A stretch of DNA of 64,000 bases from Cellulosimicrobium sp. Marseille-Q4280 (GTDB lineage: Bacteria > Actinomycetota > Actinomycetes > Actinomycetales > Cellulomonadaceae): positions 124,001-188,000 of the forward strand of contig NZ_CALPBY010000008.1 in NCBI RefSeq assembly GCF_943181405.1, given 5' to 3'. This document shows, piece after piece, positions 46,420 to 64,000 of this stretch. The number at the start of each line of letters is the position of its first letter. The first letter of the stretch is position 1. The translations under genes and the position numbers were made by a program. Below the pieces are notes generated by a model that had not been told where the DNA came from, searched no databases, and was given only the letters and a program-made list of their open reading frames with translations.

Positions 46420-49400
46420 GTGGGCTTTCTGGCGCGCCTGAACGACAACCGACGCACCGTGGCGTCGGTGACGACGGTGTCGGTGTTCTCGACGGCACTG
46501 GTGGGACTCGCGTGGTTCTACGAGGGCGAGGCGACGGCCGACGTGGAGCTGAACGACTCGGGTGTGTGGGTGACGAAGACGTCGTCGGGGCAGCTGGGTC
46601 GGTTCAACTACGAGTCGCAGGCGATCGACGGTGTGCTCGTGGCGGGGTCGGCGTCGTTCGACGTGCAGCAGGACGAGGGTCGGGTGCTGCTGGACGACGA
46701 GGGGACGAGCACGGCGTCGCCGGTCGAGGTGGCGCACCTGACGCTGGACGGGCAGGTGCGGCTGCCGGCGGGGGCGCAGGTGGCGTCGGGGGGTGCGACG
46801 ACGGCGGTGCTCGACGGTGAGGAGGGCCTGCTGTGGGTGCTGCCGTTCGACGGTGCGACGGCGTTCGACCCGGAGGAGACGGAGCCGGTCGCCGAGGTCG
46901 AGGGTGACGGCGCGCTGACGGTCTCGGGCGACGGCACGGTGTTCGTCGCGGTCCCGTCGACCGGGACGCTGTGGACCGTGGGCACGACGTCGAAGGGGAC
47001 GGCCGAGGAGCCGGAGGAGCTCGACCTCCCGGTGAGCACGGGCGCCGACGTGGCCGTGACAGCGGTCGGTGACGAACCGGTCGTCCTCGACCGGTCGGGC
47101 GGACAGCTCGTCCTTCCCGACGGGAAGACGGTCGGCGTCGAGGGCGCGGACGGTGCCCAGCTGCAGCAGCCGTCGAAGAGCTCGGACTCCGTGGTCGTCG
47201 CGACCTCGACCGGTCTGGTCACCCAGCCGCTCGGCGGCGGGGACGCCCAGGTGCGCCGGGCCGACGGCGTGCCGTCCGCCCCGGTGCAGCTCGACGGCTG
47301 CACCTACGGCGCCTGGGGCTCGACCGGGCAGGTGATCCGCGACTGCGCCGGGCCGGACAACGACGTGGACAAGCGGCTCGAGGGCGTGGACCCGCAGGCG
47401 CGCCTGGAGTACCGGGTGAACCGGCACGTCGTGGTGCTCAACGACCTGGCGGCCGGGACGCTGTGGATGGCGGCGGACGAGTACGAGAAGGTCGACGACT
47501 GGGACGTGCAGCTCCCGGAGGAGGCCGAGGGCGAGGAGTCCGACGCCGAGCTGACCAACCCGGAGCAGGTGGACCAGTTCATCGCGGACCGGTCGCAGCC
47601 GAACAAGCCGCCGCAGCCGAAGGACGACGTGTTCGGGGCCCGCCCCGGGCGCACGACGATCCTGCCGGTGCTCGCGAACGACGTCGACCCGGACGGCGAC
47701 GTCATGACGGCCTCGCTGGTCGGGGAGTCGCCGGGCAACGCGACGGTGCAGCAGATCCTCGGCGGTGCGGCGCTGCAGGCGGTCGTGCCCGAGGACGCCG
47801 AGGGCACGCAGGGGTTCCGGTACTCGGTGTCCGACGGACGGGGTGGCGTCGCCGAGGCCGGGGTCTCGCTGAAGATCTCGCCGTGGAGCGAGAACGAGAT
47901 CCCCGAGTCGACGGGCGACCCCGTGCTCAAGGTCGCGCAGGGCGGGACCGCCACGATCAAGGTGCTGCCGTTCTTCCGCGACCCGGACGGCGACGACCTG
48001 TACCTCGCGTCGGCCGCTGCGACGTCGGCGGGGGACGACGTGCGCTCGCGCCCGGACGGGACCGTGGAGTTCCGTGACGCCGGGGGATCGACCGGCCGCA
48101 AGATCGTCACGTTGACGGTGGCCGACGGCCTGGGCGGCCTGGCCGAGGGCAGGCTGCTCGTCGACGTCCTCCCGGGGACGCAGCCGCCGATCGCGGTGAA
48201 CGACCACGTCGTGGTGCCCGCCGGGCAGCCGGTCACGGTCGAGCCGCTGCGCAACGACTCCGACCCGAACGGCGACGAGCTGCGGCTCGCGTCGGTCTCG
48301 GAGTCCGCGCCGGCCGAGATCACGCCGAACTACGACGCCGGGACGTTCACGTTCTTCTCGAACGAGCCGCGCTCCTACGACCTCACGTACCAGGTGACCG
48401 ACGGCCCGGACGCCACGACCGGCCTCGTCCGGGTCGACGTGCTGCCGCCCGACGCCGCGAGCGGCCCGCCGATCGTCGTCGCGGACACCGCGCTGCTCCC
48501 CACGGGCGGCAAGACGCTCGTCGACGTGCTCGCCAACGACACCGACCCGGCGGGCGGCGTGCTCGTGGTGCAGTCGGTGCGCGTCCCTGCCGACGCGGGC
48601 GTCTCCGTGGCGGTGCTGGCGCACCAGATGCTCCGGATCACCGAGATCCGGCGGCTCGACGGGCCCGTGACGATCGAGTACACGGTCTCGAACGGCACCG
48701 AGACGTCCACGGGCCAGGTGCGCGTCGTGCCGGTGCCCGCCCCGACCCGGCTGCAGCCGCCGAACGCGGCCGCCGACGAGGTGACCGTCCACGCGGGCGA
48801 CGTCGTGACGATCCCCGTCCTGAAGAACGACACGCACCCGGACGGGCTCGAGCTGTTCCTGCAGCCCGAGCTGGAGCAGGACGTCGACCCGGCGCTGGGC
48901 GAGGCGTTCGTCTCCGAGGACACCCTGCGGTTCAAGGCCGGGCCCGAGGCCGGGACCGCCTACGCGATCTACCGGGTGCGCGACGCCAACGGGCAGGAGG
49001 ACTCCGCCCAGGTGACGATCCGCATCCGCGACGGTGAGGACAACGCGCCGCCGCAGCCGCGCCAGGTCGAGGCCCGCGTGCTCTCCGGCGCGTCGGTGCG
49101 CATCGACATCCCGGTGCACGGCATCGATCCCGACGGGGACTCCGTCCAGGTGACCGGTATCGGGGCGCCGGCGTCGAAGGGGACGGCCCGCGTCGTCGAC
49201 GGCGTCGTGGAGTACGCGGCCTCGAAGAGCTCCGTCGGGCTCGACTCGTTCACCTACACGGTGCTCGACGCGCGCGGCGCGGTGGCGACGGGTTCCGTGC
49301 GCGTGGGCATCTCGGCGCCCGGCGAGACGAACCAGCCGCCGGTCGCCGTCGACGACGAGGTGACGGTACGACCCGGACGCACGGTCGCCGTCGCCGCGCT

Positions 49401-52400
49401 GGTCAACGACACCGACCCGGACGGCGACCAGATCGCGCTCGTGCCCGCCGCGGTCGAGGACGAGCACGGCATGGACGCCGAGGTCGTCGCGGACCGCGTG
49501 GTCGTGACGACGCCCGCCGAGGACGGCTCGTACACGTTCTACTACGGCATCCAGGACACCTACGGGGCGCGTGCGACCGGCGCGATCACCGTGAACGTCG
49601 CCGCGGACGCCCCGCTCCAGCCGCCCGTCGCCCGTGACGACACGGTGCCGGTCGAGGACATCCTGGGCAGGACGACGGTCACCGTCCCGGTGCTGGACAA
49701 CGACGACGACCCCGACGGCGCGGCGACGGAGCTGACCGTCGCCGTCGAGGGGGAGACCGTCGCGGTCACCGACGGCAACGAGCTCGAGGTCACCCTGACC
49801 GAGAGGCGCCAGGTCGTGACGTACACGGCGACCGACCCCGACGGCCTGACCGCCAAGGCGTTCGTCAAGGTGCCGGGCCTCATGGACCAGGCACCGACCC
49901 TCCGCCCGGGCATCGCCCCGCTCGAGGTCAACAGCGGCGAGCCGCTCGAGATCGACATCACCGACTACGTGCTCGTCGTCGAGGGCCGCACGCCGCGGCT
50001 GACCGTCGAGGACAAGGTCACCGCGCTCGAGGGATCGCGCGAGGTGACGAGCACGACGCAGATCACGTACACGTCGACCGCCGGCTACGTCGGTCCCGCG
50101 GCCGTGACGTTCGAGGTCACCGACGGCTCGGGCCCGGACGACCCGGACGGCAGCACCGCGCTGCTCACGCTGCCGATCAGCGTGCTGCCGCCGGAGAACC
50201 TGCCGCCCGAGATCGTCGGGTCGCCGACCCTGGACGTCGCCGCGGGCGAGGAGGCGGCCGTCGACCTCGCGCGCTTCGTCGAGGACGTGGACGGCGACCC
50301 GCTGACCTTCCGGACCACCGCTCAGCCGCAGGGTGTCACGCTGGCCGTGGAGGGCTCGACGCTGCAGGCCCAGGCCACGCCCGACGTGCCCAAGGGCACG
50401 GTCGTGCAGGTGCCGATCACCGTGACCGACGGCGAGCACCCGCCGGTCGAGGGGGCCGCGACCCTGACCGTGGTGGCGTCGACGCGCCCGCTCGCGCGGG
50501 CGAACGACGACGCGGTCCCCGACGCCCACCAGGGCAAGGAGACCGTGGTCCCCGTGCTCGACAACGACTCGAACCCGTTCCCCGACACCCCGCTCACGCT
50601 CCTGGACGCCGTCGTCGAGACGGGGCAGGGCACGCCCACGGTCCGCGGTGACTCCGTCGCCGTGACGCCGCGCGAGGACTTCGTCGGGGTGATGGTCGTG
50701 CGCTACCGCGTGCAGGACGCGACGAAGGACCCCGACCGCGAGGTCGAGGGCCGGATCCAGCTCACCGTGCTCGGCAAGCCCGAGGCGCCGCCCACGCCGC
50801 AGGTCGAGGAGGTCCGCTCGAAGACGGTCGTGCTGTCCTGGGACCCGCCGAACAACAACGGCGCCGAGATCACCGGCTACACCGTGCGGTCCCAGAACGG
50901 GTACGAGAAGGCGTGCGGCACCACGACCTGCACCCTGGACGGGCTGACGAACGACGTCGAGTACACGTTCACCGTGTTCGCGACCAACGACGTCGGCGAC
51001 GAGTCCCTCACCGCCGCGCGGAAGAACGCGACCTACACCGACCGGTCCGCGATCGAGTGCGTCAACCTGCGCATCTCCCCGGCCCCCGCCGGCGGCGCGA
51101 CCGACAAGACGTGCCTGACCGAGACCACCACCACCTGGGAGGGCCTGACCAACGGCCAGGCCTACACCGTCCAGGTCCAGGCCGAGAACCGCGCACCCGA
51201 CCCGTCCGAGTGGGGCGAGACCTCGGCGCCGGAGATCCCGGCCGGCAAGCCGGCGGCACCGGCCACGCCGACCGTCTCGCGCGGCGGGCTCGGCAACGAG
51301 GTGCAGATGACGGTCTCCTGGACCCCGCCGCACGACAACGGTGGCCCGATCACCAGCTACACCGTCGAGGCCCTGCAGGGCGGTGCCGTCGCCAAGACCG
51401 TCACCGCCGGCGGCGGTGCGACCAGCGCCACGGTCCCCGTCCCGGCCTCGACCACCGACTACACGTTCCGTGTCCGGGCGCACAACAAGGCCACCGAAAA
51501 GTTCGGAGACGCCGAGTTCTCGCCCCCCTCCGCACCGGTGCGCGCCTTCGCGACGCCCGGCCAGGTGTCGAACCTCCGCGCTGACGCGACCGGGGCGAAC
51601 GGGCGGATCCAGCTCTCCTTCGGCGCCGCGTCGGGCAACGGGGTGCGTGCCGACGAGATCCGGTACCAGTACGACGCCGGCGGCGGCTGGGCCGCCCTCG
51701 GCGCCGACAAGCTGGTCGCCGGCCTCGAGAACGGTCGGAACTACACCATCAAGGTCCGCGCCCTCGCCGGCGTCGCCGGCACGACCGAGCCCGGGCCGGC
51801 CGCCAGCGCCAACGCGGAGTCGCCGTACGGCCCGATCCCCGCGCCGGACGTGGCGATGAACGGCGGCAACCAGACGATCTCCTACAGCTGGTCGACGTCC
51901 GGCAACGGGCGGGACTACACGACGTCGGTCACCGGCGCGGTCAGCTCGTCCGCCAAGAACGGGTCGGGCTCGCTCAACGTCGGCTACTCCGACACCCGCC
52001 GGATCTGCGTGACCGTCACGCCGACCGAGGGCGAGGCCAAGCAGACGTGCCGCGAGGCGACGTCGGACAAGAAGCCCGAGCCGGTGTTCACCGTCAGCAA
52101 GGGCAGCAACCACAAGCTGCCCGACGGCAACTGGCCCGGGAACTGCCAGCACTCGTCCTGCGCGGAGCTCTACCTCACGATCAAGGACGGTCCGCCGAAC
52201 ACGTCCTTCCGCTCCACGTGCTACGCGGGCGGGAACCGGATCGGCTCCGGCAACTACTTCCAGGACGCCCAGTACCGGAACCTGCGGACCGACGGCAACG
52301 GGAACTACTCCGGTGGCCAGCAGTGCGTGTGGGGCGGCCCCGGCACCCAGGTGTGGGTCGAGACGACGATCGGCACCACGAACCGCATGGCCTGGTACTG

Positions 52401-52401
52401 A
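46420..52401 (+). CDS. Giant membrane-anchored Ig-like/Fn3 repeat protein (1993 residues)
   Basis: Residues 13-34 form one membrane helix (VTTVSVFSTALVGLAWFY) after a short basic start, so the rest is outside the cell. Residues about 40-390 have repeated short strands such as GLLWVLPFDG and TGTLWTVG, suggesting a beta-propeller. From about 395 to 1453 there are roughly eleven Ig/cadherin-like repeats; several carry the calcium-type motif VLANDTDPDGD or variants and begin with PPVAVDD-like strands. Fn3 domains follow (about 1454-1890; WDPPNNNGAEITGYTV, WTPPHDNGGPITSYTV), the last having a Cys pair (ICVTV, KQTC). The final 100 residues contain four Cys and no sortase motif. GTG 46420 has GGAGGA. 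It heads the operon with MoxR, DUF58, FHA, phosphatase and kinase genes. Role unknown; adhesion or a surface fibre is plausible. Confidence 0.85.
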   Translation: MGFLARLNDNRRTVASVTTVSVFSTALVGLAWFYEGEATADVELNDSGVWVTKTSSGQLGRFNYESQAIDGVLVAGSASFDVQQDEGRVLLDDEGTSTASPVEVAHLTLDGQVRLPAGAQVASGGATTAVLDGEEGLLWVLPFDGATAFDPEETEPVAEVEGDGALTVSGDGTVFVAVPSTGTLWTVGTTSKGTAEEPEELDLPVSTGADVAVTAVGDEPVVLDRSGGQLVLPDGKTVGVEGADGAQLQQPSKSSDSVVVATSTGLVTQPLGGGDAQVRRADGVPSAPVQLDGCTYGAWGSTGQVIRDCAGPDNDVDKRLEGVDPQARLEYRVNRHVVVLNDLAAGTLWMAADEYEKVDDWDVQLPEEAEGEESDAELTNPEQVDQFIADRSQPNKPPQPKDDVFGARPGRTTILPVLANDVDPDGDVMTASLVGESPGNATVQQILGGAALQAVVPEDAEGTQGFRYSVSDGRGGVAEAGVSLKISPWSENEIPESTGDPVLKVAQGGTATIKVLPFFRDPDGDDLYLASAAATSAGDDVRSRPDGTVEFRDAGGSTGRKIVTLTVADGLGGLAEGRLLVDVLPGTQPPIAVNDHVVVPAGQPVTVEPLRNDSDPNGDELRLASVSESAPAEITPNYDAGTFTFFSNEPRSYDLTYQVTDGPDATTGLVRVDVLPPDAASGPPIVVADTALLPTGGKTLVDVLANDTDPAGGVLVVQSVRVPADAGVSVAVLAHQMLRITEIRRLDGPVTIEYTVSNGTETSTGQVRVVPVPAPTRLQPPNAAADEVTVHAGDVVTIPVLKNDTHPDGLELFLQPELEQDVDPALGEAFVSEDTLRFKAGPEAGTAYAIYRVRDANGQEDSAQVTIRIRDGEDNAPPQPRQVEARVLSGASVRIDIPVHGIDPDGDSVQVTGIGAPASKGTARVVDGVVEYAASKSSVGLDSFTYTVLDARGAVATGSVRVGISAPGETNQPPVAVDDEVTVRPGRTVAVAALVNDTDPDGDQIALVPAAVEDEHGMDAEVVADRVVVTTPAEDGSYTFYYGIQDTYGARATGAITVNVAADAPLQPPVARDDTVPVEDILGRTTVTVPVLDNDDDPDGAATELTVAVEGETVAVTDGNELEVTLTERRQVVTYTATDPDGLTAKAFVKVPGLMDQAPTLRPGIAPLEVNSGEPLEIDITDYVLVVEGRTPRLTVEDKVTALEGSREVTSTTQITYTSTAGYVGPAAVTFEVTDGSGPDDPDGSTALLTLPISVLPPENLPPEIVGSPTLDVAAGEEAAVDLARFVEDVDGDPLTFRTTAQPQGVTLAVEGSTLQAQATPDVPKGTVVQVPITVTDGEHPPVEGAATLTVVASTRPLARANDDAVPDAHQGKETVVPVLDNDSNPFPDTPLTLLDAVVETGQGTPTVRGDSVAVTPREDFVGVMVVRYRVQDATKDPDREVEGRIQLTVLGKPEAPPTPQVEEVRSKTVVLSWDPPNNNGAEITGYTVRSQNGYEKACGTTTCTLDGLTNDVEYTFTVFATNDVGDESLTAARKNATYTDRSAIECVNLRISPAPAGGATDKTCLTETTTTWEGLTNGQAYTVQVQAENRAPDPSEWGETSAPEIPAGKPAAPATPTVSRGGLGNEVQMTVSWTPPHDNGGPITSYTVEALQGGAVAKTVTAGGGATSATVPVPASTTDYTFRVRAHNKATEKFGDAEFSPPSAPVRAFATPGQVSNLRADATGANGRIQLSFGAASGNGVRADEIRYQYDAGGGWAALGADKLVAGLENGRNYTIKVRALAGVAGTTEPGPAASANAESPYGPIPAPDVAMNGGNQTISYSWSTSGNGRDYTTSVTGAVSSSAKNGSGSLNVGYSDTRRICVTVTPTEGEAKQTCREATSDKKPEPVFTVSKGSNHKLPDGNWPGNCQHSSCAELYLTIKDGPPNTSFRSTCYAGGNRIGSGNYFQDAQYRNLRTDGNGNYSGGQQCVWGGPGTQVWVETTIGTTNRMAWY

Positions 52402-52441
52402 GCACCCCGCCACGTACCCGCGACATCGAACGGAAGCGACA

Positions 52442-53416
52442 ATGACCACGATGACCCCCGAGCAGGCCGCCTGGTTCGCTCAGACCTTCGACCGCCTCGT
52501 CGGCAACGTCGGCCAGGCCGTGCTGGGCAAGCCCCACGTCGTGCGCCTCGTGCTGACGTGCATGCTCTCCGAGGGCCACGTCCTCCTCGAGGACGCGCCG
52601 GGCACCGGCAAGACGTCGCTCGCGCGAGCGATCGCGGCCAGCGTGCAGGGCACGCAGCAGCGCATCCAGTTCACTCCGGACCTGCTGCCCTCCGACGTCA
52701 CGGGCGTGACGATCTACGACCAGAAGACGGGCAAGTTCGACTTCCACCCGGGCCCGATCTTCGCGTCGATCGTCCTCGCGGACGAGATCAATCGCGCGTC
52801 GCCGAAGACGCAGTCCGCGCTCCTCGAGGTCATGGAGGAGGGTCGGGTCACGGTCGACGGCGTCGGGCACGAGGTCGGCCGCCCGTTCATGGTCATCGCG
52901 ACGCAGAACCCCATCGAGCAGGCCGGCACCTACCGGCTGCCCGAGGCACAGCTCGACCGCTTCCTCATGAAGACGTCGATCGGCTACCCCGACCACGCGT
53001 CGACGGTCGAGATCCTCTCGGGCGCGTCGGTGCGCGACCGCAGCAAGACGCTGCAGCCGCTCATCACGACGCAGGCGGTCACCGAGATGGCCGAGCTCGG
53101 CGCGCGCGTGCACGTCGACGGCGCGGTGCTCGAGTACATCTCCCGGCTCGCCGAGGAGACGCGCAACGCTCCCGAGGTCCGCGTCGGGGTCTCGGTCCGT
53201 GGTGCCCTCGCGCTGGTGCGGGCCACCAAGGTCTGGGCGGCGGCGCACGGCCGCAACTACGTGCTGCCCGACGACGTCAAGGAGCTCGCGCAGCCCGTCT
53301 GGGCGCACCGCTTCGTCCTCGACCCCGAGGCCGAGTTCGCGGGCGCGACCAGCGAGGCCGTGCTCGGCCGCCTCCTCGCCGACGTCGCCGCGCCGCAGGA
53401 GCGCCGCAGCGCCTGA
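52442..53416 (+). CDS. MoxR-family AAA+ ATPase
   Basis: This encodes 324 residues. Walker A is LLEDAPGTGKTSLARAIA, Walker B IVLADEINRASPKTQSALLE, with sensor 1 in VIATQNPIEQAGTYRLPEAQ and the Arg finger region LDRFLMKTSIGYP. The C-terminal helical lid follows. MoxR ATPases act with VWA or DUF58 proteins as chaperones that mature or assemble other proteins. Here a DUF58 protein and a transglutaminase-fold membrane protein lie directly downstream, the standard MoxR-DUF58-TGase order. ATG 52442 has only a weak purine tract (GGAAGCG); a second in-frame ATG is at 52451. The giant surface protein just upstream is the likely client. Confidence 0.93.
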   Translation: MTTMTPEQAAWFAQTFDRLVGNVGQAVLGKPHVVRLVLTCMLSEGHVLLEDAPGTGKTSLARAIAASVQGTQQRIQFTPDLLPSDVTGVTIYDQKTGKFDFHPGPIFASIVLADEINRASPKTQSALLEVMEEGRVTVDGVGHEVGRPFMVIATQNPIEQAGTYRLPEAQLDRFLMKTSIGYPDHASTVEILSGASVRDRSKTLQPLITTQAVTEMAELGARVHVDGAVLEYISRLAEETRNAPEVRVGVSVRGALALVRATKVWAAAHGRNYVLPDDVKELAQPVWAHRFVLDPEAEFAGATSEAVLGRLLADVAAPQERRSA

Positions 53417-54785: not shown

Positions 54786-57298
54786 TGAGCGCCACCGGTA
54801 CCACCACCCGCGGCTCGCGCCGCGCACCGTCGGGACAGCCCGGCACCCCGTCCGGCGCCCCCTCCGGCACGTCGTCGGGCACGTCCCGCCGGGGAACGAC
54901 CCGCCTCCGCGAGGGACGTCCTCGCGCGCTCACCGCGCTGGGCGCCGTCGACGCCGTCGCCCTGGTCGTCGTGCTCGGCGCGACGGTCGTCGGGTTCGCC
55001 CCCGTCTGGGGCTCCACCGGCTACCTCCTACCCGCGGTCGGGGGCGTCGTCGTCGGGCTCGGCGTCGCGTGGCTCGGGGCCTGGCGGCGCTGGCCCGCCG
55101 TGACCGTCCTCGCGGTCGCGGTCGTGGCCTACGTCCTGCTCGGCGGCGTGCTCGCGCTGCCCGCGGACGCGATCGGCGGCGTGCTGCCGTCGCTCGACAC
55201 GGTCCGGAACCTGCTCCTCGGCTCCGTCACCGGGTGGAAGGAGTTCGTGACGACGGTCCCGCCGCTGCACTCCTTCCCGGAGCTCGCCGTGGTGCCGTAC
55301 CTGCTGATGATGGTCACGGCGCTCGTGGCCGGCTCGATCGCGTGGCGCGCGAAGCACGCCGCCTGGGCGCTCGTCCCGCTGGTCGTGACGTTCGTCGGCG
55401 TGATCCTCCTCGGGACGGTCATCGCGGCCTACCCCGTGGTGCAGGGGCTCGTCGTCGGGATCGTCGGTCTCCTGTGGGCGAGCTGGCGCGTCACGGCCGC
55501 ACGGCTCGGCGCGCACCAGGTCACGACGGAGGCGAGCAAGGCCGCCACGCGTCGCCTGTGGTGGCACCGCGTGCGCGCGGGCGCGGCGATGCTCGCCGTC
55601 GGTGCCGTCGCCGCCGCCTTCGGCGGCCCCGCCCTGCTGCCCGACGCACCGCGGACCGTGCTACGCGAGACGGTCGTGCCCCCGCTCGACCTCCACGAGT
55701 ACGTCAGCCCGCTCACCGCGTTCCGCAAGTACGCCAAGGACATGAAGGAGGCCGAGCTCTTCACGGTGCGCGGGCTCCCCGCGGGCACGAAGGTCCGGCT
55801 CGCGACGCTCGACGCCTACAACGGCGTCGTCTACGACGCGTCGAGCGGCCTGCCGGGTTCGGGTGTGTACACCCGGGCCGGCGAGGAGATCGCGACCGTG
55901 GCGCCCGGCACCGAGGCGACCCTCGACGTCGTCGTCGGCGACTACGCGGGCGTGTGGGTCCCGGAGACGGGCACCCTCGCGGGCATCTCGTACACCGGGA
56001 GCCGCGCGCGGGAGCTCGCCGAGGGCACGTACTACAACGCGACGACGGGGACGGCGCTCACGACCGCCGGACTGCGGCCGGGGGACACGTACACCGTCGC
56101 CACGCGCGTGACGCCCGAGCCGACCGAGGAGGACCTGCGGGCCGGTGCGATCGACCAGGTCCCGGTGCCGCCGACCCCCAAGGGCCTGCTGCCCGTCTCG
56201 CTCGCGGGCAAGGGCGCCCAGTTCATGGGCGAGGAGACCGACCCGGTCGACCAGCTCTTCGCGCTGCGCGACGGGCTCGTCGCCAGCGGGATCTTCTCGA
56301 GCGGCCTGGACAACCAGCCGCCCTCGCGGCCCGGTCACTCCGCGGAGCGCATCGACACGCTGCTCGCCGACGACGAGATGGTCGGCGACGACGAGCAGTT
56401 CGCCGTCGCGCTCGCCCTCATGGCGAACCAGGCCGGGATCCCGGCGCGCGTCGTCATGGGCTTCTACCCCGACGAGAAGAACCCGTTGGAGCCGGGGGAG
56501 CCGTTCACCGCGACGGGGGCCGACGTGCACGCCTGGGCGGAGGTGCCGTTCGTCGGTTACGGGTGGGTGCCGATCACGGCGATCCCGGACGAGGACAACA
56601 AGATCCAGCCCGAGCCGAAGAGCCTGCAGGTCCCGAAGCCGCCGGTGCTCGAGGACCCGGAGCCCCCGGAGGAGCCCGCGGAGGCGGAGGCCGGCAAGGT
56701 CGACGACGAGGACAAGGAGAAGGCCGACAGCGACGGGTTCGACTGGGGCACCGTGCTGATCATCGGTGTCGCGGTGGCCGTCCCGCTCGCGCTGATCGCC
56801 CTGCCGATCGTGCTGATCCTCGCCTACAAGTCGCGTCGCCGGGCCCGGCGGCGCGCGGCCGAGCGCCCGGTCGACCGGGTGAGCGGCGGCTGGCGGGAGG
56901 TGCTCGACGCGGCGACCGACCTCGGGACGCCGGTCCCGTCCGGCTCCACCCGGCGCGAGGGGGCGGGCGTCATCGCGCAGACCTTCGGCGCGACGACGAC
57001 CATCCCGCTCGCCCACCGCGCCGACGCGACGGTCTTCGGGGCCGGAGAGCCGACCGAGCAGGAGATCGAGGCGTTCTGGGCGGACGTCGACGGAGTCGTC
57101 GGAGGGCTACGCTCCTCCGTGAACCGGCGTGCCCGGATCCGTGCCGCGCTGTCGACCCGGTCGCTGCGCTCGGCCCGGTCCGCCGGTCGGGCCGGGACGC
57201 GACGTCTGACGTCGTGGCTCCGGCGCGGCTCGACACCGACGACCACGTCGTCGCGGAACCCGACGAAGGGCTCCTCGACGAAGCAGGGAGAGAAGTGA
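54785..57298 (+). CDS. Transglutaminase-fold membrane protein, catalytic Cys replaced
   Basis: This encodes 837 residues. About seven membrane helices occupy residues 45-285; an outside domain follows to about 640; one helix near 654-682 and a cytoplasmic tail end the protein. This is the TgpA-like layout paired with DUF58 proteins. The transglutaminase core is recognisable: NQAGIPARVVMGF, TGADVHAWAEV (His582) and GYGWVPITAIPD. But the nucleophile position reads VGDDEQFA, with Asp536 where GxCxxFA enzymes have Cys, and Thr598 stands where the third triad Asp is expected. It is therefore probably a non-catalytic binding or scaffold protein. The start overlaps the DUF58 stop, and the stop overlaps the RDD-FHA start. 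Confidence 0.87.
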   Translation: MSATGTTTRGSRRAPSGQPGTPSGAPSGTSSGTSRRGTTRLREGRPRALTALGAVDAVALVVVLGATVVGFAPVWGSTGYLLPAVGGVVVGLGVAWLGAWRRWPAVTVLAVAVVAYVLLGGVLALPADAIGGVLPSLDTVRNLLLGSVTGWKEFVTTVPPLHSFPELAVVPYLLMMVTALVAGSIAWRAKHAAWALVPLVVTFVGVILLGTVIAAYPVVQGLVVGIVGLLWASWRVTAARLGAHQVTTEASKAATRRLWWHRVRAGAAMLAVGAVAAAFGGPALLPDAPRTVLRETVVPPLDLHEYVSPLTAFRKYAKDMKEAELFTVRGLPAGTKVRLATLDAYNGVVYDASSGLPGSGVYTRAGEEIATVAPGTEATLDVVVGDYAGVWVPETGTLAGISYTGSRARELAEGTYYNATTGTALTTAGLRPGDTYTVATRVTPEPTEEDLRAGAIDQVPVPPTPKGLLPVSLAGKGAQFMGEETDPVDQLFALRDGLVASGIFSSGLDNQPPSRPGHSAERIDTLLADDEMVGDDEQFAVALALMANQAGIPARVVMGFYPDEKNPLEPGEPFTATGADVHAWAEVPFVGYGWVPITAIPDEDNKIQPEPKSLQVPKPPVLEDPEPPEEPAEAEAGKVDDEDKEKADSDGFDWGTVLIIGVAVAVPLALIALPIVLILAYKSRRRARRRAAERPVDRVSGGWREVLDAATDLGTPVPSGSTRREGAGVIAQTFGATTTIPLAHRADATVFGAGEPTEQEIEAFWADVDGVVGGLRSSVNRRARIRAALSTRSLRSARSAGRAGTRRLTSWLRRGSTPTTTSSRNPTKGSSTKQGEK

Positions 57299-58977
57299 TG
57301 ACGGACGTGACGTGCGCCGCGTGCGGTTCCGCGCAGTCGTCGGGCTCGGCGTTCTGCGCGGTGTGCGGCCAGCCGTTCCCGCGGACCGGTCGTCCCGTCG
57401 CCTCGGCCGTGGCCGGGCCGCAGGGCGGCGTCCAGGCCGCCGCGGGCGGACCGGGCCTGCCGCCGTTCGCCTCCGGCGGCGGCGCGCCCGACACCACGAC
57501 CGAGCCCGAGGTCTACACGGCGACGCAGAAGGCCGTGCTGGGCGCACCGTCGTCCGGCGGGCCGACCCTGCTGACGGCGCCGTACGCGGGCGTCGGGCGC
57601 AGGTTCCTCGCGTACCTGGTCGACGGCGCCGCGATCGGCGTGATCGTGCTCGCCGTGCTCCTGGTCGGGACCGCGGTCGTCGGCGTCCCGCTCCTGGGCG
57701 GCACCCGGACCGTGAGCGCCGAGGAGGCGTCGGCCCTCCTCGGCAGGCTGCTCGGCGTCTACGTCGTCGCCGCCGTGATCGCGATCGCGTGGTGGGTCGG
57801 CCTCTGGTTCTGGGAGGGCACCACGGGCAAGACCCTGGGCAACCTCGCGACCGGGATCCGCACGCTCGACGCCGCCACCCGCGCACCGGTCGGCTTCGGG
57901 CGGGCGTTCCTGCGCTGGCTCGTCGTCGGGGCGGGCTCGATCGTGGTCTTCGTCGGTCAGCTCGTCGTCGTCCTGAGCCCCGCGTTCGACTCGTCGGGCC
58001 GCCGCCAGGGCTGGCAGGACAAGGTGGCGAGGTCCGTCGTCGTCGACGCCCGTGGCGTCGCCCCGGCGCGCGACGGCTTCGAGGGCGTCGCGTCGCTCGT
58101 CCCGCCGGCCGCGGGGACCCGGGCTGGAGCGGGGTACCCCGCGCAGGACGCGTACGGGCCGACCGGCGGATACGCCCCTGGCGGGTACGCGCCGGCCGCG
58201 ACGCCCAGCGGGTACGCGCCGGCCCCGGCTCCCGGCTACCCGACCGGGGCCTCGCCGACCGGGTACGCGCCCCCCGCGCCGCCGCGCCCCACGGGAGCGC
58301 CGACGAGCGCGGCACCGTCGGGGCAGCCCGCTCCCACGCAGGCCGGACGAGCAGGGCAGCCCCCGGCACCGCTGCCGGACCCGTGGGCCTTCCCGTCGTC
58401 GGCGTCCTCGCCCGCGAGCAGCGGTGGCGGCCTCATCACCGGCGTCCCGGGATCGGCCGGTCCGGCCGTGCCCGCCCAGGCCGCACCGCACCCCCAGCAG
58501 CACGTCCCCGCACAGGCCGTCGCGCAGACGCCCGAGCCGGTGCACGCCCGGGCCGCGGCCCCGGTCGCGGAGCCCGAGGACCCGGAGTGGGACAGCACGC
58601 GCATGGGCGCCCGCGACGTCCGGGCGATGGAGCCCGCGCCGGTCGTGACCGTCGTGCTCGAGCTCGAGTCAGGCGAGCGGCGCGTCGTCGACGGCCCCGC
58701 GCTCGTCGGGCGCAACCCCCAGCCGGCCGACGGCGAGGACTGGATCCTCGTCGCCGTCGAGGACCCGACGCGGTCGGTCTCGAAGACGCACGTCGAGCTC
58801 GGCGTCGACCCGGACGGTCTGTGGGTGAGCGACCGCGGATCGACCAACGGGACCGTCGTGTCCGCCCCGGGGACCGCCCCGCGCGTCGCGGCGCCGGGCG
58901 CACGCGTCCGCGTGCCGGTCGGCGCGACGATCCACGTGGGCGACCGTCGCCTCGTCGTGCACCCGGGACCGGCATGA
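57298..58977 (+). CDS. Zinc-ribbon, RDD membrane and FHA domain protein
   Basis: This encodes 559 residues. An N-terminal zinc ribbon (CAACGSAQSSGSAFCAVCG) precedes an RDD domain with three membrane helices (residues about 98-240: GRRFLAYLVDGAAIGVIVLA, LWFWEGTTGKTLGNLATGIR, GRRQGWQDKVARSVVVD). A Gly/Tyr/Ala/Pro-rich linker of about 200 residues with GYAPA repeats follows. A C-terminal FHA domain (about 460-555) ends it, with ALVGRNPQP, SVSKTHVEL and DRGSTNGTVV. All the phosphothreonine-binding residues (GR, SxxH, NGT) are there. It should read a phosphorylated protein, most likely a substrate of the kinase three genes downstream. Translationally coupled on both sides. Confidence 0.9.
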   Translation: MTDVTCAACGSAQSSGSAFCAVCGQPFPRTGRPVASAVAGPQGGVQAAAGGPGLPPFASGGGAPDTTTEPEVYTATQKAVLGAPSSGGPTLLTAPYAGVGRRFLAYLVDGAAIGVIVLAVLLVGTAVVGVPLLGGTRTVSAEEASALLGRLLGVYVVAAVIAIAWWVGLWFWEGTTGKTLGNLATGIRTLDAATRAPVGFGRAFLRWLVVGAGSIVVFVGQLVVVLSPAFDSSGRRQGWQDKVARSVVVDARGVAPARDGFEGVASLVPPAAGTRAGAGYPAQDAYGPTGGYAPGGYAPAATPSGYAPAPAPGYPTGASPTGYAPPAPPRPTGAPTSAAPSGQPAPTQAGRAGQPPAPLPDPWAFPSSASSPASSGGGLITGVPGSAGPAVPAQAAPHPQQHVPAQAVAQTPEPVHARAAAPVAEPEDPEWDSTRMGARDVRAMEPAPVVTVVLELESGERRVVDGPALVGRNPQPADGEDWILVAVEDPTRSVSKTHVELGVDPDGLWVSDRGSTNGTVVSAPGTAPRVAAPGARVRVPVGATIHVGDRRLVVHPGPA

Positions 58978-59828
58978 CGACCCCCGAGACCGAGGTGCAC
59001 CTCGCCTGGGGTGCCGCGTCGCACCGCGGCGCACGGCGCCTCCTCAACGAGGACCGCTTCCTCGTCTCGCGCTCGGTCTTCGTCGTCGCCGACGGCATGG
59101 GGGGCCACGACGCGGGCGAGGTGGCGAGCGCGACCGCCGTCGACGCCCTCCGGCCGCTCGCCGACCTCGAGGTCGTGACGCCCGACGACGTCCGCACGCA
59201 CCTCGCGGTCGCCCAGGAGAACGTCCGCGCGATCACGACCGAGCCCGGCCGCGGTGCGGGGACGACCGTGACGGGCGTCGCGGTGGCCGAGCAGGACGGC
59301 AACCCGTACTGGCTCGTGGTCAACGTCGGGGACTCGCGCACCTACCACCTGTCCGGGGGGCGCCTCGAGCAGGTGAGCGTGGACCACTCGGAGGTCCAGG
59401 AGATGGTCGACGCCGGTCTGCTCACCCCGAGCGAGGCGCTCACGCACCCGCGCCGGCACGTCGTGACCCGCGCGCTGGGCTCGCGCGGGGTGCCGCAGGC
59501 CGACTTCTGGTACGTCCCGATCCACCGGCACGACCGGATCCTGGTCTGCTCCGACGGCCTCACGGGCGAGCTGTCGGACGAACGGATCGCCGAGGTGCTC
59601 CTCGAGAACCCGGACCCGCAGGGTGCCGCCGAGCGCCTCGTGCACGAGGCGATCGCGGCCGGCGGTCGGGATAACATCACAGTCGTCGTCGTCGACGCGA
59701 CGGGCGTGTCCGACGACACGAGCGGTGGGAGCACCGCACCGCGGGAGCGGACGCCCGAGCCGGGTTCGACGGTCGACGAGGACACCTTGCCGAGAGAGGC
59801 TCGACTCCAGATGGGGGGCATGGCGTGA
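58974..59828 (+). CDS. PP2C-family serine/threonine phosphatase
   Basis: This encodes 284 residues. Metal-binding and catalytic motifs are complete: RLLNEDRFLVSRSVFVVADG, MGGHDAGEVAS, LVVNVGDSRTYHLSGGRLEQ, RILVCSDGLTGELSDE and GGRDNITVVVVD. The domain is about 240 residues with a 40-residue disordered acidic tail and no membrane helix, so it acts in the cytoplasm. It probably reverses phosphorylation by the kinase encoded two genes downstream, as PstP does for PknB in mycobacteria. The ATG overlaps the FHA gene's stop, and its TGA overlaps the next GTG. Confidence 0.94.
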   Translation: MTTPETEVHLAWGAASHRGARRLLNEDRFLVSRSVFVVADGMGGHDAGEVASATAVDALRPLADLEVVTPDDVRTHLAVAQENVRAITTEPGRGAGTTVTGVAVAEQDGNPYWLVVNVGDSRTYHLSGGRLEQVSVDHSEVQEMVDAGLLTPSEALTHPRRHVVTRALGSRGVPQADFWYVPIHRHDRILVCSDGLTGELSDERIAEVLLENPDPQGAAERLVHEAIAAGGRDNITVVVVDATGVSDDTSGGSTAPRERTPEPGSTVDEDTLPREARLQMGGMA

Positions 59829-61558
59829 CGCTGCGCTACGTGACGGGACAGGCACGCGCGCTCGTGCGGGGCGGTGCCGTCGTGGTGCTCCCCGCGCCGG
59901 TCGAGACGGACCTCGTCGACCAGGTGTGGGACCAGCTCGGTGCCGCGCCGGGGGTCGTGGAGGTCCTCCAGGTCCTCACCGGCGCCTTCGGCTCGAGCCT
60001 GCGCACGATCCCGCCGTTCGCGGTCGCCGTCGTGGCCGACCGCCGGGTCCACGTCGCCGTGCGGGGTGCCCTCGCGGTGACCCTGGAGGTCGAGGGTGGT
60101 GACCGCGTCCACGTCGACGGTGACGACGTCACCACCTGGTCCGAGCGGGTCGTGGACGACGTGGTCGAGCTGCTCGTGCGCACGGGCGCCGCCCCCGCCG
60201 ACGCCCCGGTCGGCGAGCCGTTGCTCGGGGACCGCGCGACGTGGCCCCTCGCGTCCGCGGTCGTGCTGGCCGACGCCGTGGCGTGGCAGCTCGCCGAGCG
60301 TCCCGCGCGGGCGGTCGCGGACCCCGAGCGCGACGAGGCCCCGGTCCACGAGACCTCCGTTCCTGGGACCGCGGCGTCGGCACCGGTCGTCGCCGGCGGC
60401 ACGAGCAGCGGCACGGACGACTCGCTCCGCGCCGAGCCCGCGTCCGCGGGGGCGCTTCCGGCTGCACCGTCCGAGCAGCCCGGGACGTTCGGCGCGACCA
60501 TCGCGCTTCCCGAGGAGACGATGGCGCCCGAGCCGGACGGCGCCGGCCTCCTCGACCACCCCGGTACGGCGAGCGAGACCGAGGACGATGCCCCGGTGAC
60601 GCCGGACGACCCGTTCCCGGCGGCCGACGACTACTCGCACCTGTGGGGCTCGACGGTGCTGCGCACCGTCGAGGACGCGGCGGTCCGGGCGCAGGACGCC
60701 GACGACGACGAGGGCGAGCCCTCTACGTCGCCGGCGGAGACACCTGTGCCGGCCGTCCCGGCGCCCGGCTCCGCCGAGCGGGTCGACGCGACCGTCCCGC
60801 CGCCCCCGGGGATCGGCGTCCCGCCCGTCCCCGGTCCGGACGAGCCGCCGCAGGCCGGCGGCCTCATCGCCGGCGTCCCGCGCGAGTGGACGGGTGCGAC
60901 CCCGGCCGCGGCCCATCGCGCCGCGACCGTCACCCCGGACGACGCGGCGCCCGACGGTTCCGCCGACGGCGGTCTCGACCACGACGGGCACACCGTGCTG
61001 TCGTCCGCGATCGCCGACCTGCGTGCGGCCGCGCAGGAGGCCGACACCCCGCCGCCACCGCCCGCGACCCCCTCGTTCACGACGCCGCCCGCCTCGGGAC
61101 AGCAGCGGATCCTCGCGCGGACGTGCGAGCAGGGGCACGGCAACCCGCCGTCGCGCGACACGTGCGCGGTCTGCGGCGGTGCGCTCGACGGCGACGCCGC
61201 GCTCGCGGTGCGCCCGCCGCTCGGTCGGCTACTGGTCTCCACCGGGCAGACGATCGAGCTCGACCGCGGGGTCGTCGTCGGGCGGCGACCCAGGACGCCC
61301 CGGACGCAGGCGGCCGACCTGCCGCGCCTGGTGACCGTGCCGAGCCCGCAGCAGGACATCTCGCGCTCGCACCTCGAGGTCACCCTCGAGGGCTGGCACG
61401 TGCTCGTGAGCGACATGGCGACGACGAACGGCACCACGCTCCTGCGCGCCGGCCAGCCGCCGCGCCGCCTGCACCCGTCGGAGCCCGTGCTCGTCGTCGA
61501 CGGCGACGTCGTCGACCTCGGGGACGACGTGACCCTGACGTTCGAAGGAATCTGGTGA
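59825..61558 (+). CDS. Cytoplasmic FHA domain protein with zinc ribbon
   Basis: This encodes 577 residues. The first 160 residues form a folded domain (WDQLGAAPGVVEVLQVLTGA, then FAVAVVADRRVHVAVRGALA) resembling a phosphatase-regulator or scaffold, which I do not recognise. A disordered Pro/Asp/Thr-rich stretch follows to about 430. Then comes a zinc ribbon (CEQGHGNPPSRDTCAVCGG), and a canonical FHA domain (VVVGRRPRT, QDISRSHLEVTLEGW, DMATTNGTTLL). There is no membrane segment. Many Thr residues in the linker could be kinase targets. It lies between the phosphatase and the kinase, overlapping both by 4 bp, so a shared complex is likely. Confidence 0.9.
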   Translation: MTLRYVTGQARALVRGGAVVVLPAPVETDLVDQVWDQLGAAPGVVEVLQVLTGAFGSSLRTIPPFAVAVVADRRVHVAVRGALAVTLEVEGGDRVHVDGDDVTTWSERVVDDVVELLVRTGAAPADAPVGEPLLGDRATWPLASAVVLADAVAWQLAERPARAVADPERDEAPVHETSVPGTAASAPVVAGGTSSGTDDSLRAEPASAGALPAAPSEQPGTFGATIALPEETMAPEPDGAGLLDHPGTASETEDDAPVTPDDPFPAADDYSHLWGSTVLRTVEDAAVRAQDADDDEGEPSTSPAETPVPAVPAPGSAERVDATVPPPPGIGVPPVPGPDEPPQAGGLIAGVPREWTGATPAAAHRAATVTPDDAAPDGSADGGLDHDGHTVLSSAIADLRAAAQEADTPPPPPATPSFTTPPASGQQRILARTCEQGHGNPPSRDTCAVCGGALDGDAALAVRPPLGRLLVSTGQTIELDRGVVVGRRPRTPRTQAADLPRLVTVPSPQQDISRSHLEVTLEGWHVLVSDMATTNGTTLLRAGQPPRRLHPSEPVLVVDGDVVDLGDDVTLTFEGIW

Positions 61559-63333
61559 GCACCAAGCGAGCACCGTCCCCGCCGCCGGAGATCCAGGGCT
61601 TCGAGTACGTCTCGCTCATCGGCTCGGGCGGTTTCTCCGACGTCTTCCTGTACCAGCAGCAGCGGCCACGGCGCCGCGTCGCGGTGAAGGTCCTGCTCCA
61701 GGAGTGGTCGAGCCCGTCGCAGCGGGCCGCCTTCGACGCCGAGGCCGACCTCATGGCGACGCTGTCGACGCACCCGTCGATCGTCACGATGTACGAGGCG
61801 GACGTCGCGGACGACGGGCGTCCGTACCTCGCGATGGAGTTCTGCTCGCGACCCAACCTCGGCGCCCGCTACCGCACCGAGCGGCTGTCCGTCGCGGAGG
61901 CCCTGCGGACCGCGGTGCAGATCGCGGGAGCCGTCGAGACGGCGCACCGCGCGGGCATCCTCCACCGCGACATCAAGCCGGCGAACATCCTCGTCACGGA
62001 GTACGGCCACCCGGCGCTCACGGACTTCGGCATCTCGTCCACCGTCGACGACGCCGCGCGCGCCGAGGGGATGTCGATCCCGTGGTCCCCGCCGGAGTCG
62101 TTCGCGGAGCCCCCGCGCAGCGGCATCGCGACGGACGTGTGGGCGCTCGCCGCGACGACCTACACGCTCCTCGCCGGTCGCTCGCCGTTCGAGGTCCCCG
62201 GCGGCTCCAACTCCAGCGCGAACCTCATCTCCCGCATCGAGACGTCGCCCCTGCCGCGCACGGGGCGCACGGACGTGCCCGCGTCGCTCGAGCGCGTGCT
62301 CGACACGGCGATGGCCAAGAACCCTGCGTCGCGGTACCCGTCGATGCTGGCGTTCGCCCGCGCCCTGCAGCAGGTCCAGAACGAGCTCTCGTACGCGGTC
62401 ACACCGGTCGACCTCCTGGACGACTCGGGTCACGTCCACGAGGAGGAGCCGGACGACGACGGCGGGACGCGCCTGCGCCAGGTCGTGTCGATCGACCCCG
62501 GAGGTCAGGCGCAGCCGACCCCGACGCGCAACCCCACGCTGCCGACCACCCCGCTCCACCCGCCGCGACAGCCCGCACCGCAGTGGCCCGCGCAGCCCAC
62601 GCCGGGCGCCCACGTCCCGCAGCAGGCATCGGCGGCACCGGCGGCGTGGGCTGACCGTCCGACCGGCACGTCGCCCGGCCACCCGTCGTCGGGCACCTCG
62701 GGCACCTACCCGACCGCCGGTCCGTACGCGCCGGTCGTCGAGGCGACGGACCCGTCGCGGCGGCACCCGGGCGCCGTCGCGCCCTACGCGCCCTGGGGGA
62801 CGGCGCCGGTCGAGGACACGGTGCAGCGCACCGTCGGTCCGGGGGAGGGAGCGGCGCCGGGCGCGCCGGAGCAGGAGGCGCGACGCGGGGCGCTGGTCCC
62901 CGTCCTCGTCGGAGCGGGAGTCCTCGTGCTGGCGGGCGTCGGCATCTTCGCCCTCACCCAGGGCGGGGGCTCCTCCGAGGCCGACGACGACCCGAGCACC
63001 ACCCCGACGAGCGAGACCTCGACCGTGCCGTCCGACAACCTCGGCGCGCTCGTCCCGCCCGTCAACGACCTCACCGGGACGTACGACCCCGAACGTCAGG
63101 TCGCGACCTTCACGTGGGCGTACGACAGCCTGGACGCGCAGGAGGGGGACGGCTTCGCGTGGCGCAAGCTCGACCTCGTGGAGACGGCGCAGTACAAGCA
63201 GATCTGGGACCAGGACACCGTCGAGCTGAGCGCGAAGCCGGGCGAGCGCGTGTGCATCGAGGTCATCGTCGAGCGTGACGGCAAGCCCTCCGCCAGCCCG
63301 CAGACGGCGTGCGTCGAGGGGGAGGCCGGGTGA
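61555..63333 (+). CDS. Receptor-type serine/threonine protein kinase with Fn3-like ectodomain
   Basis: This encodes 592 residues. The kinase domain (about 15-275) has IGSGGFSDVFLYQQ, Lys45 in VAVKVL, the catalytic loop LHRDIKPANILV (Asp139), DFGISST (Asp157) and the PPES equivalent of APE. The activation loop is short. A Pro/Gly/Thr linker (280-440) and one membrane helix (about 445-465, LVPVLVGAGVLVLAGVGIFA) lead to an outside domain of about 95 residues after a Thr/Ser stalk; it resembles a Fn3 sandwich (ATFTWAYDS) with a Cys pair (VCIEV, QTACVEG). This ectodomain is not a PASTA repeat. It resembles the last Fn3 module of the giant protein in this operon. GAAGGA precedes GTG 61555. Confidence 0.93.
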   Translation: MSTKRAPSPPPEIQGFEYVSLIGSGGFSDVFLYQQQRPRRRVAVKVLLQEWSSPSQRAAFDAEADLMATLSTHPSIVTMYEADVADDGRPYLAMEFCSRPNLGARYRTERLSVAEALRTAVQIAGAVETAHRAGILHRDIKPANILVTEYGHPALTDFGISSTVDDAARAEGMSIPWSPPESFAEPPRSGIATDVWALAATTYTLLAGRSPFEVPGGSNSSANLISRIETSPLPRTGRTDVPASLERVLDTAMAKNPASRYPSMLAFARALQQVQNELSYAVTPVDLLDDSGHVHEEEPDDDGGTRLRQVVSIDPGGQAQPTPTRNPTLPTTPLHPPRQPAPQWPAQPTPGAHVPQQASAAPAAWADRPTGTSPGHPSSGTSGTYPTAGPYAPVVEATDPSRRHPGAVAPYAPWGTAPVEDTVQRTVGPGEGAAPGAPEQEARRGALVPVLVGAGVLVLAGVGIFALTQGGGSSEADDDPSTTPTSETSTVPSDNLGALVPPVNDLTGTYDPERQVATFTWAYDSLDAQEGDGFAWRKLDLVETAQYKQIWDQDTVELSAKPGERVCIEVIVERDGKPSASPQTACVEGEAG

Positions 63334-64000
63334 GCGAGCTCGCGATCGAGTTCTGCGGCGAGTGGTTCCGTCCCTCCGCGGACGACGGCGACGTCTTCGA
63401 GATCGGCCGTGACGGCGACCTCTCGATCGAGGACAACCCGTACCTGCACCGCCGCTTCCTCCGGGTCTCCTTCGAGAGCGGGATCTGGTGGCTCGCCAAC
63501 GTGGGTTCCCTCATCTCCGCGACGGTGTGCGACGCCGGCGGTGGCGTCCAGTCCTGGCTCTCGCCCGGGAACCGGCTCCCGATCGTCTTCCCGACGACGT
63601 CGATCGTCTTCACCGCCGGTCCGACGACGTACGAGATCCTCGCGCAGCTGCACGGCGCGCCGTACCAGGAGATCCGGTCGGAGGACGCCGACTCCGGTGC
63701 GACGACCATCGGGATGATCACGTTCACGACGAGCCAGAAGCAGCTCATCGTCTCGCTCGCCGAGCCGATGCTCCGCCGCGACGGCACGGGGCTGTCCGAG
63801 ATCCCGTCGTCGGCCGCGGCGGCCGCGCGGCTCGGCTGGGCGACGACGCGGTTCAACCGCAAGCTCGACAACGTGTGCGACAAGCTCGACCGGATCGGCG
63901 TGAAGGGGCTGCGCGGCGGCCCCGGGGCGCTCGCGACGAACCGGCGGGCGCGGCTCGTCGAGTACGCGGTCGCGTCACGCCTCGTGACGTCCGCCGACCT
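63330..64000 (+). CDS. FHA-like protein with possible HTH C-terminus (3' end outside window)
   Basis: At least 223 residues are visible. The N-terminal half reads as an FHA-like sandwich: VFEIGRDGDLSIEDNPYLHR, RFLRVSFESGIWWLANVGS; the GR and LHRR parts fit, but the NGT motif is replaced by SLISATV. After residue 130, TFTTSQKQLIVSLAEPMLRR leads into a region resembling a winged helix (SEIPSSAAAAARLGWATTRF, NRKLDNVCDKLDRIGVKGLR). That would suggest a phospho-responsive DNA-binding regulator. The GTG overlaps the kinase stop. The gene is cut at the window end, so its C-terminal part is unknown. Confidence 0.7.
   Translation, partial: MSELAIEFCGEWFRPSADDGDVFEIGRDGDLSIEDNPYLHRRFLRVSFESGIWWLANVGSLISATVCDAGGGVQSWLSPGNRLPIVFPTTSIVFTAGPTTYEILAQLHGAPYQEIRSEDADSGATTIGMITFTTSQKQLIVSLAEPMLRRDGTGLSEIPSSAAAAARLGWATTRFNRKLDNVCDKLDRIGVKGLRGGPGALATNRRARLVEYAVASRLVTSAD

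Follow-up and report, generated by a model that had tools for sequence, protein, structure and literature searches.

Organization of the locus

The stretch analysed here, referred to below as the window, comprises 64,000 nucleotides of the 4.86-Mb genome of Cellulosimicrobium sp. Marseille-Q4280 (contig C8, positions 124001–188000). Its distal end carries a run of nine genes on the same strand that the original prediction, made from the sequence of the window, put forward as a candidate undescribed system built around a giant surface protein. All nine genes are real and lie at the positions claimed for them:

46420..52401, + strand: giant surface protein, 1993 residues (Pfam, transmembrane scan, conserved regions)
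52442..53416, + strand: MoxR AAA+ ATPase of the PFNA type, Walker A PGTGKT (Pfam)
53493..54785, + strand: DUF58 protein (Pfam, with start choice considered)
54785..57298, + strand: TgpA-type membrane protein with a transglutaminase fold, catalytic Cys missing (Pfam, transmembrane scan)
56390..56392, + strand: codon of TgpA Asp536, the residue found in the catalytic Cys position (alignment)
57298..58977, + strand: RDD-FHA protein, with a weak zinc-ribbon-like region, an RDD membrane domain and a C-terminal FHA domain (Pfam)
58597..58599, + strand: Thr434 of the RDD-FHA protein, candidate phosphorylation site and the only conserved linker Thr there, 48/51 (alignment)
58974..59828, + strand: PP2C phosphatase, Stp1-like (Pfam; NCBIfam match under its cut-off)
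59825..61558, + strand: soluble FHA protein (Pfam)
60653..60655, + strand: Thr277 of the FHA protein, candidate phosphorylation site, 56/62 (alignment)
60992..60994, + strand: Thr390 of the FHA protein, candidate phosphorylation site, 55/62 (alignment)
61555..63333, + strand: membrane Ser/Thr kinase, helix at residues 447–465, ectodomain of about 110 residues (Pfam, transmembrane scan)
62467..62469, + strand: Thr305 of the kinase linker, candidate phosphorylation site, 38/38 (alignment)
62818..62820, + strand: Thr422 of the kinase linker, candidate phosphorylation site, 30/38 (alignment)
63330..64000, + strand, ending 31 bases beyond the window: last gene, FHA domain plus a helical, possibly winged-helix-like C-terminal domain, 233 residues

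The locus is cut by the window edge and continues past base 64000, on the same strand, with genes for an ATPase, a WXG100-type protein and an LpqN-like protein. The nine genes make up the first half of a locus for type VII-like secretion. As judged from sequence comparison, the entire locus is a core corresponding to the PFNA operon of Bifidobacterium joined to a module resembling the type VII secretion variant T7SSd, and it is widespread in soil and plant actinobacteria. Both the secretion half just past the window and the missing transglutaminase Cys were overlooked in the original prediction. The features that appear to be new here are this lost Cys, the intact kinase, PP2C and FHA sites in nearly every aligned row, a threonine motif, and a probable ubiquitin-like domain.

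The secretion half

Conservation was followed using 12 proteins of the locus as queries. Named genomes were scanned with an alignment of the ATPase, and the analysis covers the best 80 of 536 relatives as ordered by their similarity to the Salsipaludibacter protein; residue counts refer to these named loci together with the window. Several loci are cut off by the end of a contig, MoxR was assessed only where stretches were examined, and some rows represent one genome reached by two routes.

The ATPase (1503 residues) begins 69 bases after the last gene and combines an FHA domain with FtsK/SpoIIIE ATPase domains. Among NCBIfam models it scores higher with EssC (534 bits, cut-off 778) than with EccCa (351 bits), both under their own cut-offs, and two of its four best matches among solved structures are YukB and EccC5. 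Its Walker A1, B1 and A2 motifs are intact in 81 of 81 rows. A start codon at −4 of the stop of the preceding FHA gene is available for the ATPase in 47 of 76 cases, and start codons at −4 are kept across relatives of the locus. The same genome encodes a second EssC/EccC-like ATPase (L199, G000:C1:849196-852018), 37% identical, in an open frame of 1467 codons.

Directly after the ATPase gene lies the gene for the WXG100-type protein (P0001), which has 89 residues and a W-x-G motif. The LpqN-like protein has 157 residues; two of three relatives match the LpqN family above cut-off, and the protein of the Cellulosimicrobium locus matches only DcrB (E 0.22). In some relatives, WXG-headed proteins of 307–417 residues are encoded at this place, and at locus L112 there are two WXG-headed-looking proteins of 357–359 residues (11539-12612 and 12785-13864), the first of which has a weak Mbeg1-like/lipase class 3 match and is a candidate type VII effector. 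The WXG-headed proteins encoded downstream of the ATPase look like type VII substrates. Genes of the LpqN family adjoin WXG-headed genes at two loci (L106:16245-16727 and L095:15847-16323), and their products could serve as substrate chaperones.

Residues 1–95 of the ATPase, which lie before its FHA domain, probably form a ubiquitin-like domain. Among 23 ATPase N-termini, five matched YukD (best E 0.0045), the commonest family; ThiS, three other ubiquitin-like families and some unrelated ones were matched too. A profile search of solved structures returned ubiquilin-3, a redesigned ubiquitin and SAMP1 at E ~0.01, and ISG15 at 0.09. In the structural model (predicted local distance difference test score, pLDDT, 80), a strand-strand-helix-strand-strand-helix-strand arrangement precedes the FHA domain, and its strand order fits a ubiquitin-like fold; the fold-match lists were filled by FHA proteins (OdhI, GarA).

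The giant surface protein

The giant protein is predicted to have an N-terminal signal anchor (residues 13–31) and a conserved N-terminal domain of about 360 residues, together with Big_9/cadherin-like immunoglobulin (Ig) repeats, two Pfam fn3 stretches and two more Fn3-like stretches recognized by eye; its C-terminus contains Cys. Pfam searches at E 10 found nothing for the N-terminal 400 residues and a chance-level match for the C-terminus. According to the transmembrane scan, a single N-terminal helix is present in 45 of 67 giant rows, many of the others beginning inside the gene, and a C-terminal membrane helix in none of the 67, duplicates and start-truncated copies included. With about 1960 residues outside, a protein of this kind could span the Gram-positive wall.

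The 10-kb flanks reach only to about DUF58, so the search for the giant covered 18 of the 80 best genomes. Its N-terminus was matched in all 18, with frames of ~1900–2300 codons in 17 and fragments only in G112. In the stretches read, MoxR usually follows the giant immediately, and some of these giants come as a tandem pair. Two further tandem giants are encoded elsewhere in the Cellulosimicrobium genome (L237, G000:C1:933597-946893), their N-terminal 450 residues being 65% and 88% identical to those of the window giant, and none of the partner genes was found in the 34 kb examined there. This suggests that one assembly set may serve several giants.

MoxR and TgpA, a probable pseudo-transglutaminase

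The MoxR proteins of the cluster have a Walker A signature of their own, PGTGKT in 23 of 25 rows (the other two are short fragments), versus PGVGKT in 10 of 10 generic rows. TgpA is predicted to have six N-terminal helices and one at residues 662–680. Its catalytic Cys is absent from all 91 cluster-linked rows (77 of them distinct; three further linked rows, gapped at this column, were not counted), whereas it is kept in 11 of 11 generic MoxR-DUF58-TgpA triads (Fisher p 5.6e-15), one of which comes from the window's own genome. The position is occupied instead by Asp, or by Glu, Ala, Gln or Ser. Additional linked sets agreed (0/10, with two more unreadable, 0/19 and 0/3), as did additional generic ones (2/2). 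The catalytic His is also lost in many divergent rows and is kept by most Actinomycetales rows.

Owing to this loss, the TgpA of the cluster is most likely a scaffold rather than a cross-linker, and cross-linking of the giant by an active TgpA was rejected on the missing Cys in the aligned transglutaminase cores. In Pseudomonas, the same three families occur in identical order (e.g. PA2875-2873), but the cluster TgpA lacks the Cys and often the His, and the cluster MoxR differs in its Walker signature. We take PA2875 to be the MoxR gene and PA2874 the DUF58 gene of that triad. For the Pseudomonas TgpA, a catalytic triad and measured activity are reported (PMC3507681). The proposal that a MoxR/DUF58/transglutaminase-fold complex serves the giant gained support from the usual co-occurrence of these genes, to which there are exceptions.

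The phospho-signalling set

Residues required for kinase, phosphatase and phosphothreonine-binding functions are almost uniformly retained. The six catalytic residues of the kinase are invariant and the four metal-binding Asp of PP2C are kept, each in 76 of 76 rows, and the six FHA residues are intact in the FHA protein (75/75), the RDD-FHA protein (70/71, the other row being gapped) and the ATPase (80–81 of 81). In the FHA domain of the last gene, Gly, Arg, His and Asn are retained and the phosphothreonine-binding Ser is absent in 78 of 78 rows. A model of an orthologue of this last protein has helices at 133–148, 160–167 and 171–187, and its fold-match lists were filled by the FHA part alone. 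In the original prediction this protein would adjust transcription and the kinase would sense the state of the giant. The intact kinase, phosphatase and FHA sites support the predicted kinase-FHA-phosphatase circuit.

Threonines were counted after thinning the 70–77 sequences found for redundancy, which left sets of 51, 62, 38 and 15 that include the window. T434 of the RDD-FHA protein, T277 and T390 of the FHA protein, and T305 and T422 of the kinase stand out of poorly conserved linkers, in which other Thr columns reach at most 10%, 18% and 50%. The exceptions are T473 of the FHA protein (79% conserved), which lies beside the FHA domain and adjoins Ser472 (92%), and T283 of the kinase (38/38), which borders on the kinase domain. 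Conservation in the linkers extends to some Pro, Gly and acidic columns. The five Thr share a T-x-hydrophobic-R/K tendency, weakest at T390 of the FHA protein (Lys in 33/62) and T434 of the RDD-FHA protein (Arg in 30/51), and they may be phosphorylated and bound by FHA domains. According to the published account of the PFNA operon, its kinase Pkb2 phosphorylates MoxR. With this short list of conserved Thr, control of a type VII machine by phosphorylation becomes amenable to direct tests.

The position of a membrane kinase beside a long surface protein also recalls wall-integrity sensing, in which kinase and giant would monitor the wall in the manner of PASTA kinases and wall synthesis would be adjusted through the FHA set. 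The kinase domain is indeed nearest a PknB-type model (159 bits, under cut-off), but a Pfam search found no PASTA domain in the kinase, the ectodomain, which has an Fn3-like look, measures only about 110 residues, and none of the 12 genes of the locus encodes a wall-synthesis enzyme, so we regard this explanation as improbable.

Conservation and distribution

In the 80 best loci, the last (FHA and helix-turn-helix, FHA-HTH) gene was found in 77; PP2C, FHA and kinase in 75 each (all three in 73); TgpA in 73; RDD-FHA in 72; DUF58, where the flank ends, in 57; WXG100 in 38; and the LpqN-like gene in 20. The exact row TgpA-RDD-FHA-PP2C-FHA-kinase-FHA-HTH-ATPase is present in 69 of the 80, in Arthrobacter, Microbacterium, Cryobacterium, Brachybacterium and other genera. 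Of the remaining 11, six are cut by contig ends (L097, L101, L105, L128, L149, L169), three have one gene unmatched (L112, L135, L140), and the distant relatives Salsipaludibacter (L093) and an actinobacterial metagenome-assembled genome (MAG; L094) have a different order. The giant, the ATPase and the genes between them were found on one stretch at L174, L180, L185, L187, L188, L189, L192 and L217–L221 and in G008 (Arthrobacter ipis); at L183, giant and ATPase share a stretch with no RDD-FHA match between them. An actinobacterial DUF58-to-ATPase row on a Bacillota-labelled contig titled Sporosarcina beigongshangi (L117, NZ_JADHDY010000023.1) is likely an assembly contamination.

In a sample of 39 genomes of the order, MoxR was at least 56% identical in 20 and at most 51% in the other 19, of which G136, at 50%, still carries the cluster. 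The 11 genomes whose ATPase is orthologous (over 1000 bits) all belong to the group of 20 that have a PFNA-type MoxR (Fisher p 1.5e-4). Among the 20 core stretches of this sample, profile searches found the ATPase in nine (L217–L221, L223, L226, L228, L233), and in G169 a 33%-identical ATPase lies just beyond the end of the stretch. In a sample of 79 genomes of the class, the N-terminus of the giant was found in five (E 1e-8), namely three of the four sampled genomes of the own order (the own genome included) and two of another family, which carry giant-MoxR-DUF58-TgpA at three loci, with the ATPase present once. The same core occurs in Salsipaludibacter, which belongs to another class, and linked TgpA and ATPase were found in two of 100 genomes of the phylum besides the own genome. 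This neighbourhood survey bears out the view of the run as one conserved unit: the order recurs across families, which is not what would be expected of a neighbourhood confined to close relatives, and a local or recent cluster was rejected on the recurrence across families and class.

The same data bear on whether the ATPase belongs to the system at all. The locus could instead encode a system that displays the giant protein as an adhesin or wall spacer and has assembly enzymes and a kinase circuit of its own; the ATPase would then be a frequent but separately working neighbour. This would account for giant, MoxR, DUF58 and TgpA usually occurring together while the ATPase is found in only about half of the stretches, for the extra orphan and tandem giants, and for the adhesive role reported for bifidobacterial FN3. 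However, the orthologous ATPase, when present, sits with the core (at most 20 kb away) in 10 of 11 genomes of the order sample, its −4 start after the FHA gene is available in the majority of rows noted above, and its FHA domain keeps the phosphothreonine site. We consider the display explanation a serious contender, if a doubtful one.

Relation to the PFNA operon

In its published description, the PFNA operon is given as pkb2, fn3, aaa-atp, duf58, tgm, prpC, a hypothetical gene and fha, and as confined to (gut) bifidobacteria. All five core families plus phosphatase and FHA are present in the window, the order fn3-aaa-duf58-tgm is kept, and the giant is of nearly the same length (1993 residues versus 1994 reported for PFNA) with Fn3 domains in a similar region. 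The kinase gene of the window, however, lies after tgm, near the far end, so that the order pkb2-fn3-aaa-duf58-tgm is not found there, and the locus also has more FHA proteins, an RDD domain and, attached to it, a type VII ATPase and WXG100.

The full five-gene PFNA order, kinase-giant-MoxR-DUF58-TgpA, was found in three genomes of family f44 (G136, G151, G168; L234–L236), which look like bifidobacteria by this gene order, their genome sizes of 1.8–2.7 Mb and a G+C content of 57–67% in the stretch. In two of them PP2C comes next and an FHA-containing match follows further on, once on the opposite strand. A profile built from giants like that of the window matches their giants at 971–1215 bits, their TgpA has Ser for Cys and Thr or Gln for His, and only short FtsK-like matches were found for the ATPase. 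The same order recurs in six stretches (L206–L211) from MAGs of the family of a contig titled Bifidobacteriaceae. In the literature, the WXG100 gene of B. longum GT15 has a locus tag far from PFNA (PMC9415070), a type VII cluster is reported in other bifidobacteria (PMC4965825), and a mycobacterial review notes the likeness of a moxR operon to PFNA (PMC12067865).

The occurrence of the gene set in Arthrobacter, Microbacterium, Cryobacterium and other genera contradicts the published confinement of PFNA to bifidobacteria and makes a role directed at the host less plausible. The host immune sensing proposed for PFNA draws on the binding and induction of TNF-alpha reported for B. longum GT15, but the same gene set is present, by record titles, in Arthrobacter, Cryobacterium, Herbiconiux and Sinomonas, and we consider this role very unlikely for the locus. 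These four genera are best known from soil, plants and cold places. If PFNA and the type VII locus are one system, PFNA needs a function fitting soil and plant bacteria too; the missing catalytic Cys also puts the published transglutaminase name of the tgm product, that of an enzyme, in doubt.

Relation to type VII secretion variants

The variant T7SSd has been described from Olsenella and Bifidobacterium, with five core parts, TsdA, TsdC, TsdD, TsdH and TsdI; no ubiquitin-like gene is reported for T7SSd, and the main text mentions neither MoxR nor transglutaminase (PMC11217815). The locus resembles it in having an EssC-like ATPase with a phosphothreonine-competent FHA domain (as TsdC), a WXG100 protein beside the ATPase (as TsdA, with scores under curated cut-offs), a membrane Ser/Thr kinase (as TsdD, which is described with a helical C-terminus) and a giant Ig-like protein (as TsdI). 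This likeness is drawn from the published descriptions of the parts. No TsdH-like small one-helix gene was found from the giant to the LpqN-like gene, where no gap exceeds ~150 nt; it could lie elsewhere. Relative to T7SSd, the MoxR-DUF58-TgpA triad, PP2C, three further FHA proteins and the probable ubiquitin-like domain fused to the ATPase are added, and such a fusion, if true, would explain the absence of a separate ubiquitin-like gene in T7SSd.

The variants T7SSb and T7SSe (EssC, EsaB/YukD, PP2C, FHA) are approached through the ATPase, which is nearest EssC, and through the kinase, phosphatase and FHA theme of T7SSe. In contrast to these variants, the locus proteins gave no EsaA/EssB-type family match, and the giant and the triad are in place instead. 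The original description of the combination as undescribed did not hold: the core is the published PFNA operon, and ATPase, WXG100, kinase and giant resemble T7SSd, on which publications the idea of an undescribed system was rejected. A text search of the open-licence PMC literature found no paper linking type VII secretion with PFNA, or with MoxR plus transglutaminase. The locus joins two literatures not found connected, one treating PFNA as a cytokine-binding, host-directed device, the other newly sorting type VII variants.

A proposed phosphorylation-controlled envelope system

We interpret the locus, with a probability of roughly 0.53, as a phosphorylation-controlled envelope system in which a PFNA-type core, often coupled to a T7SSd-like secretion module, would install the giant. 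MoxR, using ATP, DUF58 and the Cys-less transglutaminase-fold protein, acting as scaffold or recognition module, would fold and install the giant, whose N-terminal helix would stay in the membrane while the remaining ~1960 residues extend across the wall. Under the control of its small ectodomain, the membrane kinase would phosphorylate itself and linker Thr in the RDD-FHA protein and the FHA protein; these phosphothreonines would be docking sites for FHA domains, the one in the ATPase among them, and PP2C would reset the system. The docked state would gate the TsdC-type ATPase and thereby the export of WXG100 proteins and WXG-headed effectors, which would pass by or through the giant. In some lineages the giant-installing part is kept with no ATPase linked to it, the kinase set being present in some cases and missing in others. 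All physical interactions, the direction of signalling and export are inferred from genes and their products as predicted. In a more specific form, which we offer tentatively and at less than even odds, the locus would represent a distinct Actinomycetales type VII subtype in which a phosphothreonine/FHA switch gates the ATPase and MoxR, DUF58 and the pseudo-transglutaminase install a giant Ig/Fn3 conduit across the wall, PFNA being a lineage parted from its ATPase.

Several observations weigh against the envelope-system interpretation. The WXG100 protein of the locus itself falls under curated cut-offs (TIGR03930, E 1.9e-4; PF06013, E 0.002), and of the 67 loci that extend 5 kb or more downstream, a WXG100 gene was found in 37, among them loci of Sinomonas and Microbacterium, but not in the other 30, all of which are titled Arthrobacter or Pseudarthrobacter. 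The ATPase is absent beside 10 of the 20 core stretches of the order sample (L222, L224, L227, L229–L232, L234–L236), which include those of G145, G162, G152 (two of three loci) and G159 (two), the reduced L227 and the three f44 genomes, and it is also absent from the stretches examined of G082, L239 and L241. Giants without any partner gene in the stretch occur at L173, L186, L190 and L191 and at L237 of the own genome. At L181 (G106:C3), giant, DUF58, TgpA and kinase form a row without a MoxR match, in an Arthrobacter genome that also holds the full cluster; L227 (G150), a reduced or rearranged form, has a PFNA-type MoxR followed by RDD-FHA, PP2C and FHA, with no match to giant, DUF58 or TgpA. 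The top two profile matches of the ATPase N-terminus are to CD276 (E 0.004), another fold, and the best of five comparisons of the kinase ectodomain with the Fn3-like domains of the giant reached 45% probability. Finally, the window giant is anchored at its N-terminus and lacks the C-terminal helix of TsdI, and membership in T7SSd as defined was rejected on this topology.

Neighbouring genes and closest relatives

Upstream of the giant, the window (33283–46078) encodes respiratory complex I and a polyprenyl synthase, with no sign of a link to the locus. The closest named relatives among the loci compared belong to Cellulosimicrobium; in a stretch probably from C. marinum, MoxR is 94%, TgpA 90% and the giant 69% identical to the window proteins.

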